Virus record (IMG/VR): IMGVR_UViG_3300043395_001241
Location: 1 to 39,310 of that record
DNA: 39,310 nucleotides
From: a virus
Strand: one strand, 5' to 3'
The notes under the pieces are model-generated. The model was not told the DNA's origin. It saw nothing but the letters and a program-made list of their open reading frames with translations, and did no database searches. This document shows, one piece after another, positions 5,114 through 11,164 of the stretch. How positions within the stretch are numbered: the stretch's first letter is position 1; every line of letters begins with the position of its first letter. A program made the translations under genes and the position numbers.

Positions 5114-8100
5114 ATGGCGGCTTCTGGCGCACAACAAATTCAACTCTACTACTCGACCTCTTCGGGTACGGCTCCTGTTGCTGGCAATCTGGCTAATGGT
5201 GAACTTGCAATCAACATCACTGATGGCAAGTTGTACTACAAAGACAACTCGGGAACTGTTCAAACTTTAGCAACCAAAGCCGCCACAAGCGGATCTTTCT
5301 CTGACATTACTGTTTCTGGTAGCGCAACTCTTTCTGGCGGCACAGCCAACGGGGTTCTGTATCTCAACGGCTCTAAGGTTGCGACAAGTGGTAGTGCGCT
5401 GACTTTTGATGGGACAACGCTTGGAGTTGCAAACGGTGTTACTGGTGGAACTGCGCTGTCTTTGACTGGAACTTATGCGGCATCTGGAACGGTCGCATTT
5501 ATGAACTTTCAGCGTGTTGGGGGTGCGGTTGCTGGAACGCTTGGCTATGACGATGCAAGCACTGCAATTCGGTTTGGAACGACCACCAATCACTCAACCA
5601 TTTTCCTTCAAAACAACACCGAACAAATGCGCCTGACCTCCACAGGTCTTGGCATTGGGACGAGTTCGCCTTCCAAAAAACTTGAAGTTGCAAACTCTGA
5701 CGCATTGATTTACGGCATTACCGTAGGCCGTGGAGCAGGTGCTGTGTCCACCAATACTGCGGTGGGTGCGAGTGCGTTGGCGGCGAATACGACAGGTTCT
5801 AACAACGTTGCGGTTGGCAATAGTGCTATGGCCGCAACTACATCAGCCGCAAATAACACTGCGGTCGGCTCTGGCGCTTTGCAAACCAACACTACGGGCG
5901 ACCAGCATACTGCCGTGGGGCGTGGGGCGCTGAGTTTGAATACGACTGGCTATTACAACTCAGCGTTTGGTTGGGCATCTTTGTATTCCAATACCACTGG
6001 GGCATTTAATGTAGGCATTGGACATTCCTCGCTTTACTCCAACACCACCGCCAATTACGGCACTGCCGTTGGCTATCAAGCAGGGTACAGCAACACCACA
6101 TCAAACGGGTTGACTGCGTTTGGATACAAAGCCGCCTATGCGGTTACAAACGGAACCAATGCCGCTTTTGGTCGTGAGGCGTTGCTTAGTGAAGCGTCTG
6201 GTTCTGGTAACACTGCGTTGGGCAATTACAACTTGTACACGCAAAACGGAGCAAGCAATAACACTGCCGTTGGATACAATGTGATGTACGCCAATACGAC
6301 TGGCGGTAACAATACTGCGGTTGGATATCAGGCGTTAATCTCCAACACCACAGCATCTAACAACACTGCGGTAGGTTTTCAGGCTTCGTACACCTCAACC
6401 ACAGGAACCCACATTACTGCAATAGGCTACCAAGCCATGAAAGGCGGTACGAGTGCGGATGGTTCTTACAGTGTTGCTGTCGGCAGTAGCGCACTCTTTG
6501 CAATCACTTCAGGTGTTCAAAACACTGCTGTTGGTTACAACACAATGACATCCACGACCACGGGGAATAACAACTCCGCTTTGGGTCAGGGTGGTCTTGC
6601 GTTAAATACCACAGGTTCTTCAAACACAGCCGTAGGTCAAGCGGCCCTCTACAACAACACCACAGCCTCTCAAAATACTGCTGTTGGTTATCAGGCGCTT
6701 GAGCAAAATACCACTTCCTCTAACAATGTGGCTGTGGGGTATCAGGCGGCGAATAGAAACACGACAGGCGTTGGCATAACTGCAATTGGTTCACAAGCCC
6801 TATATTCAAATACAACAGGGAACTTGAACACTGCGCTTGGAACGCTTGGCCCTGGTGGGCTTTCTGCGCCCCTGTTTGCCAACACCACTGGTAACTACAA
6901 CATTGCAATTGGCGCTGGGATTACTGGCTCTCGTCTTGCGGCTTTAGCGCAAAACACGACTGGAACTGGCAACACGGCGATTGGCAATTCTGCGTTGTCG
7001 AGCAATACGACTGCCAGCGACAACACTGCAATTGGTTACAGAACACTGCAAGACAGCACTGGCTCTGCAAACACTGCGATTGGCACTCAAGCCCTCCAAG
7101 CCAACACCAGCGCATCCAACAGCACCGTTGTCGGATATCAAGCGGCGTATAACAGTTCTGTTGGCTCGCAACTGACAGTGCTTGGATGGAGAGCGCTCTA
7201 CTCGTCAACTGTCTCCAACTTCAATGTGGCCATCGGTTCACAGGCGCTTTATTCGTGGAACAACACAAGTGCTGATGGCTCATGCGCTGTCGTTGGCTAT
7301 CAGGCCGCATACAGCACCACGACTGGAAATGCCAACTCAGTATTGGGTCACCAAGCCCTCTACTCCAACACCACCGCCTCTAACAACACGGCTGTTGGTT
7401 ATCAGGCGGGGTATCAAAATACCACGGGCACAAACAACGCTTTCGGTGGCTTACAGGCAGGTTTTTGGAATACCACTGGTTCTCAGAATACTGCTTTTGG
7501 TGCGGGTTCTTACGCTTCAAACTCAACTACTGCTACAGGTTCTAATAACTCTTCTTTTGGGTATCAAGCGCTTTACAGTAACACCACCGCCTCTAACAAC
7601 ACTGCGGTGGGTTATCAGGCTGGGTACAGCAACCAGACAGGCCAATATCTGACTTTTGTTGGGGGCGGTTCTGGAAGAGTAAACACCGCAAGTTCCAACG
7701 ATGGCTTTGGGTATCAGTCGCTTTATTCCAACACCTCTGGCACAGCCAACTGTGCAATTGGCGCAGGCACCCTGTACTCAAACACAACTGGCAATTACAA
7801 CACCGCTTTGGGTATTGGGATTATTGGTTCTACTGCGCCAGCACTTTTAGGCAACACGACTGGTTCGTATAACATTGCGATTGGGAGCGGCGCCCTCCAG
7901 TCCAACACCACCGCCTCTTACAACACTGCTCTTGGTTGGAGAGCGGGGTACAGCAACCAAACGGGAACAGACAACACTTATGTCGGTGCTCTGGCTGGTT
8001 ATAACGCAACTGGCCTTGGAAACACTTTTGTCGGCACTAGCAACAACCAAGGTGCAGGCTACTTTGTAACCACAGGTGCAAAGAACACTATCCTTGGTGG

Positions 8101-8578
8101 CTACAACGGCAACCAAGGTGGTGTCGACATTCGCACCTCAAACAACAATGTGGTGTTATCTGACGGCGACGGCGGTATAACTGCTCGTTGGGACGCAAAT
8201 AACGCATACATTGTTCGAATGGGGTCTGGTGCTGGCAGTAACGCAGTCAAGTACAACACCACCACCAAAGAACTGACATACGACACATCGTCTGCTCGGT
8301 ACAAAGAAAACATTCGGGACAGCATCTACGGTCTTGATGCTGTTATGTCGTTGCGTTCTGCAATGTTTGAATACAAGAAAGAACAGCGCACAGATGTTGG
8401 ATTGATTGCCGAAGAAGTTGACTTGGTTATCCCTGAGTTGGTTGGCAAGAACGCTGACGGACAACCTGATTCTGTGTCTTACGACCGCATGGTGTCTGTG
8501 TTGGTCAAAGCCATCCAAGAACTTAAATCTGAACTCGACTCGGTGAAAGCCGAACTTGCAACCCTGAAAGGAGCCTGA
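5114..8578 (+). CDS. Long tail fibre with YadA-like head repeats and S74 self-cleaving chaperone, 1154 aa
   Basis: The N-terminus (about 8-55) is an attachment motif, LYYSTSSG...NGELAINITDGKLYYKDN. Residues about 185-960 carry dozens of degenerate NTAVGYQAL-type units like the left-handed beta-roll head repeats of trimeric autotransporter adhesins. The C-terminal 100 residues are a Peptidase S74 intramolecular chaperone (ARYKENI, GLIAEEV) with the likely catalytic dyad Ser1059 and Lys1064 in the S-x-x-R-x-K spacing. In endosialidase-type proteins this domain drives trimer folding and then cuts itself off. It ends in a coiled coil (AIQELKSELDSVKAELATLK). This is the best candidate for the main host-range determinant. 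Confidence 0.9.
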   Translation: MAASGAQQIQLYYSTSSGTAPVAGNLANGELAINITDGKLYYKDNSGTVQTLATKAATSGSFSDITVSGSATLSGGTANGVLYLNGSKVATSGSALTFDGTTLGVANGVTGGTALSLTGTYAASGTVAFMNFQRVGGAVAGTLGYDDASTAIRFGTTTNHSTIFLQNNTEQMRLTSTGLGIGTSSPSKKLEVANSDALIYGITVGRGAGAVSTNTAVGASALAANTTGSNNVAVGNSAMAATTSAANNTAVGSGALQTNTTGDQHTAVGRGALSLNTTGYYNSAFGWASLYSNTTGAFNVGIGHSSLYSNTTANYGTAVGYQAGYSNTTSNGLTAFGYKAAYAVTNGTNAAFGREALLSEASGSGNTALGNYNLYTQNGASNNTAVGYNVMYANTTGGNNTAVGYQALISNTTASNNTAVGFQASYTSTTGTHITAIGYQAMKGGTSADGSYSVAVGSSALFAITSGVQNTAVGYNTMTSTTTGNNNSALGQGGLALNTTGSSNTAVGQAALYNNTTASQNTAVGYQALEQNTTSSNNVAVGYQAANRNTTGVGITAIGSQALYSNTTGNLNTALGTLGPGGLSAPLFANTTGNYNIAIGAGITGSRLAALAQNTTGTGNTAIGNSALSSNTTASDNTAIGYRTLQDSTGSANTAIGTQALQANTSASNSTVVGYQAAYNSSVGSQLTVLGWRALYSSTVSNFNVAIGSQALYSWNNTSADGSCAVVGYQAAYSTTTGNANSVLGHQALYSNTTASNNTAVGYQAGYQNTTGTNNAFGGLQAGFWNTTGSQNTAFGAGSYASNSTTATGSNNSSFGYQALYSNTTASNNTAVGYQAGYSNQTGQYLTFVGGGSGRVNTASSNDGFGYQSLYSNTSGTANCAIGAGTLYSNTTGNYNTALGIGIIGSTAPALLGNTTGSYNIAIGSGALQSNTTASYNTALGWRAGYSNQTGTDNTYVGALAGYNATGLGNTFVGTSNNQGAGYFVTTGAKNTILGGYNGNQGGVDIRTSNNNVVLSDGDGGITARWDANNAYIVRMGSGAGSNAVKYNTTTKELTYDTSSARYKENIRDSIYGLDAVMSLRSAMFEYKKEQRTDVGLIAEEVDLVIPELVGKNADGQPDSVSYDRMVSVLVKAIQELKSELDSVKAELATLKGA
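5740..7970 (+). repeat. Degenerate coding repeats (NTAVGYQA-type units)
   Basis: The repeat unit is of variable length, with a core translating as SNNTAVGYQAG(Y)SNTT. Many copies differ by synonymous and conservative changes, and near-identical DNA stretches recur (for example around 6640, 7360 and 7580). These could recombine and change fibre length. Boundaries are approximate. Confidence 0.85.
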
Positions 8579-8580
8579 AA

Positions 8581-8811
8581 ATGACTGAAATCGCAACCCC
8601 TGTGGAGCAACCCACCGAAGCCGAAATAGCGAGGCACTACTCGGCGGCAATGGACTCGGTGAACCTAATCAACGCTGGCAAGCCCGAAGGCATGGAAGAT
8701 GCTGAGTGGGCTGACTGCGTGGCTCGAAACAAAGAGCACCTTCGTCTGATGATTGCCAAACCTTGGTGGACTACGGAAGACCTAACACCTTTGCAACAGG
8801 CTTCGGCATAA
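8581..8811 (+). CDS. Small acidic protein, 76 aa, unknown
   Basis: A 76-residue acidic protein with a Glu/Pro-rich start and a helical middle (NAGKPEGMEDAEWADCVARNKEHLRLMIAKP). There is no membrane segment. An AAGGAG ribosome-binding site overlaps the end of the fibre gene, so it is translated with the tail operon. It may be a fibre-assembly helper from position; no family is recognised. Confidence 0.75.
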   Translation: MTEIATPVEQPTEAEIARHYSAAMDSVNLINAGKPEGMEDAEWADCVARNKEHLRLMIAKPWWTTEDLTPLQQASA

Positions 8812-8825
8812 TACGCATGGGTAAG

Positions 8826-8851
8826 CCGCCACCCACAACGGCGGTATTTTT
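8826..8851 (+). terminator. Weak terminator-like hairpin
   Basis: CCGCC at 8826-8830 pairs with GGCGG at 8840-8844 around a 9-base loop, followed by TATTTTT. The short stem and long loop make termination partial at best. Confidence 0.4.
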
Positions 8852-8863
8852 AAAGGAAAAGCA

Positions 8864-9037
8864 ATGGAAGACATCAAAATTCAACTGAACTTGTCTTTGG
8901 TCAATGGGATTCTGGGTTATTTGGGAACCCGTCCTTACGGCGAAGTATTCCAGTTGGTTCAAGCCATCCAAGAGCAAGCAGGACCCCAGGTTCCTGTTCA
9001 AGCTCCTGTTGAAGAAACAGAAACCTCTTTGCAGTAA
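8864..9037 (+). CDS. Small protein, 57 aa, upstream of the tail hub
   Basis: Translates to 57 residues beginning MEDIKIQLNLSLVNGILGYL, with a helical, Gln-rich centre (EVFQLVQAIQEQAG) and an acidic Pro/Glu tail. It starts after AAAGGAAAAGCA, the same leader that precedes several early genes at 24-26 kb. Small genes of this kind are common next to podoviral tail hub genes. Function unknown. Confidence 0.7.
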   Translation: MEDIKIQLNLSLVNGILGYLGTRPYGEVFQLVQAIQEQAGPQVPVQAPVEETETSLQ

Positions 9038-9042
9038 AGATC

Positions 9043-9558
9043 ATGGATTACCAAAGACTTCGCACCCCTCTGACCAATATCACACAACAAGATGTGAAAG
9101 ATCTTTTCTTTTATGACAATGGATGTCTTAAATGGAAAAATGATCGTGCCAGAGGTAAAGTGAAGTCTGGTGATATTGCTGGAAATTTATCGTCAAGGGG
9201 TTATTGGAGAATATCTTTGAATCATAAAGAATATCCTGCTCACAGACTGATTTTTTTGATGCATCACGGATATATTCCTGCTGTTATTGATCACATTAAC
9301 GGCAATCCTCTTGACAATAAAATTGAAAATTTAAGAGAAGCAACAGATCAAACAAACCAATACAACAGAAAAATTAGTAAAAACAATTCTTCTGGATGTA
9401 AAAATGTTTCTTGGAATGCAAAAGGAAACTATTGGCAAATACATATCAAAGCAAATAAAAAAGTAAAAAGTTGGTATGTCAAAGATTTTGAATTGGCTGA
9501 ATTGATTGCAAAAGAAGCAAGAACAATTTATCACGGAGAGTTTGCAAATCATGGCTGA
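9043..9558 (+). CDS. HNH homing-type endonuclease with AP2-like DNA-binding domain, 171 aa
   Basis: Residues 1-10 (MDYQRLRTPL) are the start of the neighbouring tail-hub protein, fused in frame to the endonuclease. An HNH_3-type nuclease core spans about 60-110, with AHRLIFLMHHG then DHINGNPLDNKIENLR (H67, D83-H84, N92, N96). An AP2-like DNA-binding segment follows at about 117-166 (GCKNVSWNAKGNYWQIHI...KSWYVKDFELAELIAKEA). The gene is much more AT-rich than its neighbours, which indicates foreign origin. It uses the translation start of the interrupted gene, and its last codons contain the start of the rebuilt tail-hub gene. These enzymes cut alleles lacking the insertion and spread by repair. 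Confidence 0.9.
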   Translation: MDYQRLRTPLTNITQQDVKDLFFYDNGCLKWKNDRARGKVKSGDIAGNLSSRGYWRISLNHKEYPAHRLIFLMHHGYIPAVIDHINGNPLDNKIENLREATDQTNQYNRKISKNNSSGCKNVSWNAKGNYWQIHIKANKKVKSWYVKDFELAELIAKEARTIYHGEFANHG

Positions 9559-9586
9559 TTATCAAAGATTAAGAACTCCATTAAAT
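9551..9586 (+). other. Recoded duplicate of the tail-hub gene's first codons
   Basis: This repeats the peptide DYQRLRTPL found at 9046-9072. Of the nine shared codons six are changed synonymously (Tyr, Leu, Arg, Thr, Pro, Leu), all toward A/T. It lies at the 3' end of the AT-rich endonuclease cassette, so it most likely arrived with the cassette and restores the disrupted gene. Confidence 0.85.
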
Positions 9587-11164
9587 ATGATGTCCTTTTG
9601 CCCCGATGTGCCGTCAAACGCACTCGGGACGAATGAGTACAACTCTGGTCGCAACATTGAAACAGATGTTAGAGGGGTAAAGAAGATCTTTGGTGAACAA
9701 GAGATATTGACTGCCATTCCTGCTGGTCCGATATTCATGGAAGGTGGTTTTAGAAATGAAACCACTTTTGTTTATATCGTAGCCACCAGGGATTCATCTT
9801 CTCACGGAAAATGGTACATGGTGACAACTTCAGGGGTGACTAACATTACCCCTGGGGTTGGAGCCAATCCTTCTGTTTACTTAACGGGTTATACGGCTGA
9901 TTTGAACATTACAACCTCTTGGGTGGGTAATGTTTTTTTCATCAACGACACCGTAAACAACCCCATGTATTTCTTGCCCACGGGTACGGAAATCCAAATC
10001 ACGCCTGATGCCCAGTGGAATTACGATGTTGGCGTCACCTCCACCCGTGCTGGGTTTGTTCGCAACTTCTGTTCTCCCAATGTGGGGAACATACTTGTTG
10101 CAGGAAACCTGACCAAGACCTCTGGCGGCATTCTGACTAACTACCCAACCACGGTGCGTTGGTCGCAATCTTTTGGCAATCAAGGTGTTCCAGATACTTG
10201 GGAACCTACCCTAAACAACATCGCTAACGAGCAGGAGGTCCCTGTCCGAGGTCCGATCATTGACGGATTCTTCCTTGGTGGTAACTTCTACATCTGCTCG
10301 TATTGGGATACGGTTGTTCTGACTCCTATTGCCTATCAAAACAGTTCAGCCCCTGTGTTTGGGGTTCGATTGTTTAATCAAGGGCGTGGGTTGCTGAATA
10401 ACAACTGCTGGACCAACACCGATCAAAATGTCTACGGCATCGACAGTCGGGATATTTGGGTGTTTGACGGGTCTGCTTTCAACTCTATCGGTAATCAAAG
10501 GGTTAAGAATTACTTCTTTGAGAATCTAAACCAGACCTACTATGACCGTGTGTTCATGGTCAACAATACCCAGAAATACCAGATTGAGATCTACTATCCT
10601 GACCTGACCTCTACTGGCTGGTGTAACAAAATGTTGTCGTACCGCTATGACCTCAATGTCTGGAATGCTCCTAAAGACATTCAAAACGCCTGTATGGGCA
10701 CTGAGGGTCCCAAGATTGTTTCGGGCCAGTTCCATCTAGCCTCTAGGGTTGTTGTTTATGCCCAAGGCGAAGTGGCTAATAGCAAGATTATTCAGACCAA
10801 TATTGGCAACAAGTTTATCAATGACGCTCCGATTCCTGCGTTGTTTGAAAGAACCAATGCTGTGTTACAGACGGATAAAGGACCTGTTCCTTTCTCCAAC
10901 CGAGTCTATGTTCACAGGGCGCTTCCTGAAGTGTCTGGGACTGGCACGGTAGAGATTACCTTGGGTGGTGCTAACTCCACTGGTCAAACCCCTACCTATG
11001 GTCAAAAGGGCTATACCAACATTGACACCGACACCCCATGGGTTCCTACCCAACAAAACGCTGTTCGGACAATTGCCATCAAAGTGGAATCCAACGACAA
11101 TTCCCACACATGGAATGTCACGGCAATGAACTACCAAGCCCAGATTGTTGAGGATGCTTTCTAA
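9551..11164 (+). CDS. Tail hub / DNA stabilisation-like protein, 537 aa
   Basis: A 537-residue beta-rich protein with many short repeated Trp/Tyr/Asn strands (YICSYWDTVVLTP, IDSRDIWVFDG, YRYDLNVWNAP). This is the pattern of the P22 gp10 / T7 gp12-type hub or nozzle beta-propeller that closes the podoviral tail. The ATG at 9551 overlaps the endonuclease stop (ATGGCTGA). An earlier in-frame ATG at 9506 would add endonuclease-derived residues and is not used here. It is coupled to the next gene by TAATG at 11162-11166. The start has been rebuilt by the HNH insertion. Confidence 0.75.
   Translation: MADYQRLRTPLNMMSFCPDVPSNALGTNEYNSGRNIETDVRGVKKIFGEQEILTAIPAGPIFMEGGFRNETTFVYIVATRDSSSHGKWYMVTTSGVTNITPGVGANPSVYLTGYTADLNITTSWVGNVFFINDTVNNPMYFLPTGTEIQITPDAQWNYDVGVTSTRAGFVRNFCSPNVGNILVAGNLTKTSGGILTNYPTTVRWSQSFGNQGVPDTWEPTLNNIANEQEVPVRGPIIDGFFLGGNFYICSYWDTVVLTPIAYQNSSAPVFGVRLFNQGRGLLNNNCWTNTDQNVYGIDSRDIWVFDGSAFNSIGNQRVKNYFFENLNQTYYDRVFMVNNTQKYQIEIYYPDLTSTGWCNKMLSYRYDLNVWNAPKDIQNACMGTEGPKIVSGQFHLASRVVVYAQGEVANSKIIQTNIGNKFINDAPIPALFERTNAVLQTDKGPVPFSNRVYVHRALPEVSGTGTVEITLGGANSTGQTPTYGQKGYTNIDTDTPWVPTQQNAVRTIAIKVESNDNSHTWNVTAMNYQAQIVEDAF

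Follow-up and report, generated by a model that had tools for sequence, protein, structure and literature searches.

A free-standing HNH endonuclease gene in the 5' end of a phage tail hub gene, with a captured start and a rewritten replacement head

The window, that is, the whole stretch of 39,310 nucleotides analysed here (virus record IMGVR_UViG_3300043395_001241), is a 39 kb record of a freshwater phage in which portal, glycosyltransferase, endolysin and Erf-like genes were recognised and which is of the short-tailed-phage type. Three genes follow one another on the + strand of the locus: a small ORF of 57 aa (8864..9037), a free-standing HNH endonuclease gene of 171 aa (9043..9558) and a tail hub gene of 537 aa (9551..11164). 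The hub product belongs to phrog_3287 and its profile matched tail nozzle proteins of the PDB (8zkk and 8zkm), so that tail hub is a fair name for it. Its start, at the ATG at 9551, reads MADYQRLRTPLNMMSFCPD (ATGGCTGATTATCAAAGATTAAGAACTCCATTA); a longer TTG-initiated hub ORF at 9506 was discarded as mechanical, the real start being at 9551. On the 5' side of the hub gene the window also carries a repeat-rich ORF of 1154 aa (5114-8578), whose C-terminal stretch resembles by eye an S74-type chaperone domain, and the genes found at this place vary widely between relatives.

The product of the nuclease gene, with the N-terminus MDYQRLRTPLTN, contains an HNH domain (Pfam HNH_3, E 4.5e-17; phrog_99, E 6e-63), and a weak match to I-HmuI in the PDB (1u3e, E 1.5e-4) indicates, at the level of sequence similarity, that it is a distant relative of this enzyme. 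The initial annotation had assigned it to an HNH-AP2 class, but Pfam gave HNH_3 and no AP2 match in six HNH members at E up to 1; the C-terminal sequence is AP2-like by eye only. The same annotation had proposed a layout with neither intron nor intein, which agreed with our results. A group I intron was rejected because a search of 8500-10500 against Rfam gave no intron hit at E up to 1. An intein was excluded because the nuclease and hub genes do not share a frame and are separated by a stop, the TGA at 9556-9558, which ends the nuclease gene and, in its own frame, overlaps the region of the hub start. RNA folding around both starts revealed nothing unusual, and no convincing promoter was found near the element.

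The two nearest relatives of the hub (L002 and L003, 87-88% protein identity) both lack the nuclease. In them the gene that precedes the hub is the 57-aa ORF, as in the window, and directly behind it the hub begins with ATGGATTACCAAAGACTTCGCACYCC. When aligned, the window nuclease gene begins exactly where L002 and L003 begin their hub, and therefore the native hub start has been captured by the nuclease gene, as had been proposed. The captured part (9043..9080, + strand) amounts to about 12 codons plus 2 nt, rather than the ten codons originally read there; the hub homology fades at codon 12-13, where the nuclease sequence ITQQDVKDLF starts. Across the captured start, about 59 bp of the window (9010-9068) are identical to L003, in contrast to a clearly lower similarity on either side, which is perhaps the trace of a recent exchange.

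At the other end of the nuclease gene, the hub restarts with a rewritten head of 17 codons, MADYQRLRTPLNMMSFC (9551..9601, + strand). The peptide DYQRLRTPL occurs in both copies of the start, a nine-residue match far beyond chance, with three of the nine codons identical and six changed, exactly as first described. The native copy of this stretch is nearest to the empty-site L003 and L002 (25/27 nt), and the restart copy to L026 (28/30 nt) and L082 (26/30 nt), both of which bear a cassette. The GC content of the restart head (0.31) was close to that of the nuclease gene (0.33) and unlike that of the hub body (0.47), so the description of these codons as A/T-rich like the cassette is right. Between the window head and L002 or L003, synonymous divergence did not exceed the level found elsewhere in the gene (p 0.24-0.48), and an excess of recoding is thus not supported from the window alone, whose nearest empty relatives are more distant than those of the pairs described below. 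Cassette heads shared codon choices more often with one another (55%) than empty alleles did (39%), slightly above the 47% predicted from the codon usage of the HNH genes, a level of sharing reached in 22 of 1000 simulations.

Closely matched filled and empty alleles located the insertion. L093 and L247 are identical on the left through hub nt 47 and on the right from nt 46, and what is inserted between these flanks is the HNH gene together with a head whose codons 4-15 are rewritten. L277 and L281, with flanks 91.7% and 93.5% identical, have the left junction in codon 3 and the right junction after codon 17. Together these junctions put the insertion site within the hub ORF, at about nt 45-51; it lies inside the gene and not at the gene start, where the initial annotation had put it. 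Whereas the window alone offered no excess, the pairs L277/L281 and L093/L247 showed decisively that the head is rewritten and has not simply diverged with age. Between L277 and L281, 15 of 16 head residues were the same, yet synonymous codons were identical at 2 of 14 places in the head and at 419 of 509 (82%) in the body (head vs body, p 6e-8), and in L090 vs L215 the figures were 2 of 11 in the head and 80% in the body (p 1.7e-5). The HNH gene of L093 (L093:3892-4411) has a frameshift following SGCK, so that some copies are not active; this insertion, a very recent one, may have lost its function already, unless the frameshift is a sequencing error.

A nuclease flanked by two copies of one peptide could also arise if the hub start had been duplicated in tandem at insertion and the copies had then drifted, with the nuclease as a passenger. 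We consider this very improbable, since the restart is nearest to cassettes in other phages and not to the native copy, and the GC content of the head is nuclease-like. Moreover, in L093 the left copy is that of the empty alleles and the right one is rewritten, so the divergence was already present at a recent insertion.

Cassettes of the same layout were found at nine distinct hub loci (the window, L026, L033, L082, L083, L090, L093, L118 and L277, the last being the same as L280), against about 125 empty ones, giving a presence/absence polymorphism at a fixed site and bearing out the idea that the insertion supplies the replacement start. In all nine the HNH gene directly precedes the hub gene and the 3' junction is the same: the hub ATG is spanned by the last HNH codons, which encode NHG or NHV (CHV in L277). 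The number of hub codons that open the nuclease gene differed, being 16 in L093 (MSDYTRLRTPFLNMSF), about 12 in the window and a few in the others. For L026, L033, L082, L083, L093 and L277, blastn matched the DNA upstream of the cassette to that of relatives with an empty site; for L090 and L118 it gave no close match there. In a tree built from 134 hub bodies, which could accommodate eight of the nine cassettes, the cassettes were scattered, requiring eight changes for the eight placed, at least six of them forced by well-supported branches. This distribution demonstrates, as far as the sequences allow, that the cassette was acquired at the hub repeatedly and independently. All filled loci, that of the window included, are on metagenomic contigs, and chimeric assembly was therefore weighed as a source of the arrangement; it is exceedingly unlikely, because nine contigs have a conserved 3' junction, L277 and L280 come from different samples and agree across both junctions, and the layout is also present in a second gene family. 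In L072 (2940-3020) a stretch resembling the HNH 3' end (GAGTTTTGCAAATTATG) precedes the hub start and there is no nuclease; it differs from the HNH 3' end at 6 of 27 positions, the next empty allele at 12, and is likely the scar of a lost element.

The codons next to the junction also separated filled from empty alleles. MSFTP at hub codons 14-18 was present in 115 of 125 empty alleles, absent from the other 10, and found in none of the nine cassettes (p 3e-9, for a motif picked after looking at the data and with a value affected by relatedness). The cassettes carried three different changes, T17C, M14L or M14C. Among 351 codon pairs, codons 14 and 17 separated the two classes best (p 9e-10; next pair, 3e-6), and of seven phylogenetically independent pairs six went in the same direction and none in the opposite one (median p 0.03). 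Loss of MSFTP is the pattern expected of altered target sites, an indirect sign that the rewritten alleles may be immune to a putative cut here.

The rewritten heads could have another origin, namely ordinary intronless homing with co-conversion, in which the nuclease would have lain next to the hub in an A/T-richer donor relative, whose own hub start would have come along as flanking DNA without any selection for immunity. Phage homing normally involves co-conversion (PMC2988022, PMC12724721), and the restart head of the window resembles the L026 and L082 heads as well as the composition of the HNH gene. Furthermore, the L093 head resembles that of L118, and residue V5 is common to both, in loci whose HNH genes are 81% identical and whose hub bodies are 69% identical. 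Against it, the junction motif was altered in 9/9 cassettes by the three changes just given, which differ even between the sister HNHs of L026 (T17C) and L033 (M14L), and the L277 head encodes the unusual TSLKTPFSNM of its recipient lineage. This peptide occurred in no loci other than L277, L280 and L281, so no foreign donor is visible for it. On balance we regard co-conversion as a possible but somewhat doubtful account of the heads. L026 and L033 have similar HNH genes and hub bodies and differing heads, and head similarity was correlated equally with HNH and with hub-body similarity (r about 0.32 for both). The rewritten head may simply have come with the element instead of being recoded in place.

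Translation of the rescued gene probably relies on signals lying within the last codons of the nuclease. Its C-terminal motif HGxFANHG (HGEFANHG in the window) encodes both a GGAG (9535-9538), which we propose as the ribosome-binding site, and the hub ATG (9551-9553), the whole signal spanning 9535..9553 on the + strand. The spacing between GGAG and ATG is 12 nt; the usual optimum is shorter. We compared distinct HNH genes with the HGxFANHG motif according to whether their tail overlaps a downstream ORF of at least 60 aa, as it does in 36 of them, hub cassettes included. The Gly codon was GGA or GGG in 30 of these 36 and in 9 of the 35 without such an ORF (p 1e-6, a statistic that ignores relatedness), so that codons of the nuclease itself seem adapted to initiate the gene that it interrupts. 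Since the hub start and the HNH stop overlap, coupling may contribute too; the hub would then be translated from an internal start with translational coupling to the nuclease.

A second family with start capture, unrelated to the hub, was a small coiled-coil gene that phage records name 'heat shock factor binding protein'. The HNH genes of L190, L184 and L117 begin with its native start (VEEIDPVK, VEPGEIDPV and MEHPEID, respectively), which in empty relatives opens the coiled-coil gene itself (VEEIDPVKYG in L303 and MEPGEIDPVKYG in L357), and after the HNH gene the coiled-coil gene restarts as MDKxPExDLVKYG. L184 is the same as L336, and L190 the same as L297. The restarts in L117, L184 and L190 have D-L-V, and most empty alleles have D-P-V or D-P-I. 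In L116, L133, L135, L140, L180 and L204 an HNH gene lies just 5' of what we take to be a DUF5856-like gene, which starts within the HNH tail and, in phage records with an empty site, comes after the portal gene; it is possibly a third target, the layout being compatible and the evidence less. Two further HNH tails overlap the start of a large ORF on the reverse complement, one of 467 aa in L136 (ATG 1162), by eye terminase-large-subunit-like, and one of 503 aa in L098 (ATG 2353), by eye portal-like.

Taken together, the locus is probably the product of a free-standing HNH homing element that inserted in the 5' end of the hub (nozzle) gene, captured its start and supplied a rewritten head. According to this model, the nuclease would cut the empty hub allele near codons 14-17, and repair would copy the nuclease and the rewritten head into the cut allele. 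On the left side, the recipient keeps its own start and first codons, which now open the nuclease gene; on the right side, the element would bring a ribosome-binding site and an ATG made from the nuclease's C-terminal codons, and its rewritten copy of the lost hub codons would join the recipient's hub body. The hub gene would remain functional after insertion, and the rewritten head would no longer be a good target of the nuclease. The cleave-and-rescue layout put forward in the initial annotation, without intron or intein, is thereby well supported by sequence-level tests, namely the captured start, the rebuilt head and its recurrence at nine loci. A wider reading would be that a class of phage HNH genes systematically invades sites just inside the starts of essential genes, capturing the start, using the conserved C-terminal HGxFANHG codons as a ribosome-binding site and start for the rescued gene, and carrying protective heads specific for each target, and that these are natural homing-and-rescue drives; we give this about an even chance. 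Beyond the hub, it draws on the start capture in the coiled-coil gene, the possible cases at the DUF5856-like gene and the 36 HNH genes, hub cassettes included, with a tail overlapping a downstream ORF.

The nearest known arrangement is that of mobile ORFs in fungal mitochondria, in atp6 of Allomyces and in atp6, atp9, cox2 and nad3 of Glomus, where an endonuclease ORF carries a diverged copy that replaces the 3' end of the gene (PMC3630166). As there, an endonuclease ORF sits in a gene, the duplicated coding end is diverged in DNA and conserved in protein, and the native copy is displaced (PMC3630166). A displaced native copy with a diverged functional copy of the coding end, the mark of such mobile ORFs, was thus found here at the 5' end. 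In contrast to the fungal elements, which concern the 3' end, encode LAGLIDADG or GIY-YIG enzymes and are mitochondrial, the phage cassette replaces the 5' end, and only in the phage cassette does the native start become the nuclease start and do the last codons of the nuclease form the new initiation site.

Like the seg and mob genes of T4 and the skunavirus HNH genes, the cassette is stand-alone, scattered and absent from close relatives (PMC2988022, PMC12724721), and for such free-standing endonucleases the donor sequence is expected to confer resistance (PMC2988022, PMC12724721). Of the free-standing genes reviewed, most are intergenic, whereas the cassette lies inside the coding sequence of a virion protein whose start is rebuilt. 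The ShiLan-type HNH insertion in a phage methylase gene is likewise within a gene, with no intron or intein detected, and there too invaded alleles differ from uninvaded ones beside the site; its host gene, however, reads through the insert, and the hub instead restarts after the HNH gene (PMC11855218). Synthetic Cleave-and-Rescue and HomeR drives also combine a nuclease with a recoded rescue of the target gene, but they are engineered and RNA-guided, whereas the phage cassette is natural and protein-guided, with a resistance that we infer. A literature search, mainly of open-access papers, turned up no description of a phage homing endonuclease that captures a 5' start. Such a capture, with the 5' end rebuilt, would then be a new form of an arrangement whose mirror image, with duplicated 3' ends, is already known in fungal mitochondria.

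The matched natural alleles described here make both target immunity and start capture directly testable. The arrangement indicates that a selfish nuclease without a splicing device can inhabit an essential gene by rebuilding the part that was lost, and that the logic of engineered rescue drives occurs naturally, at the 5' ends of genes, and more than once.
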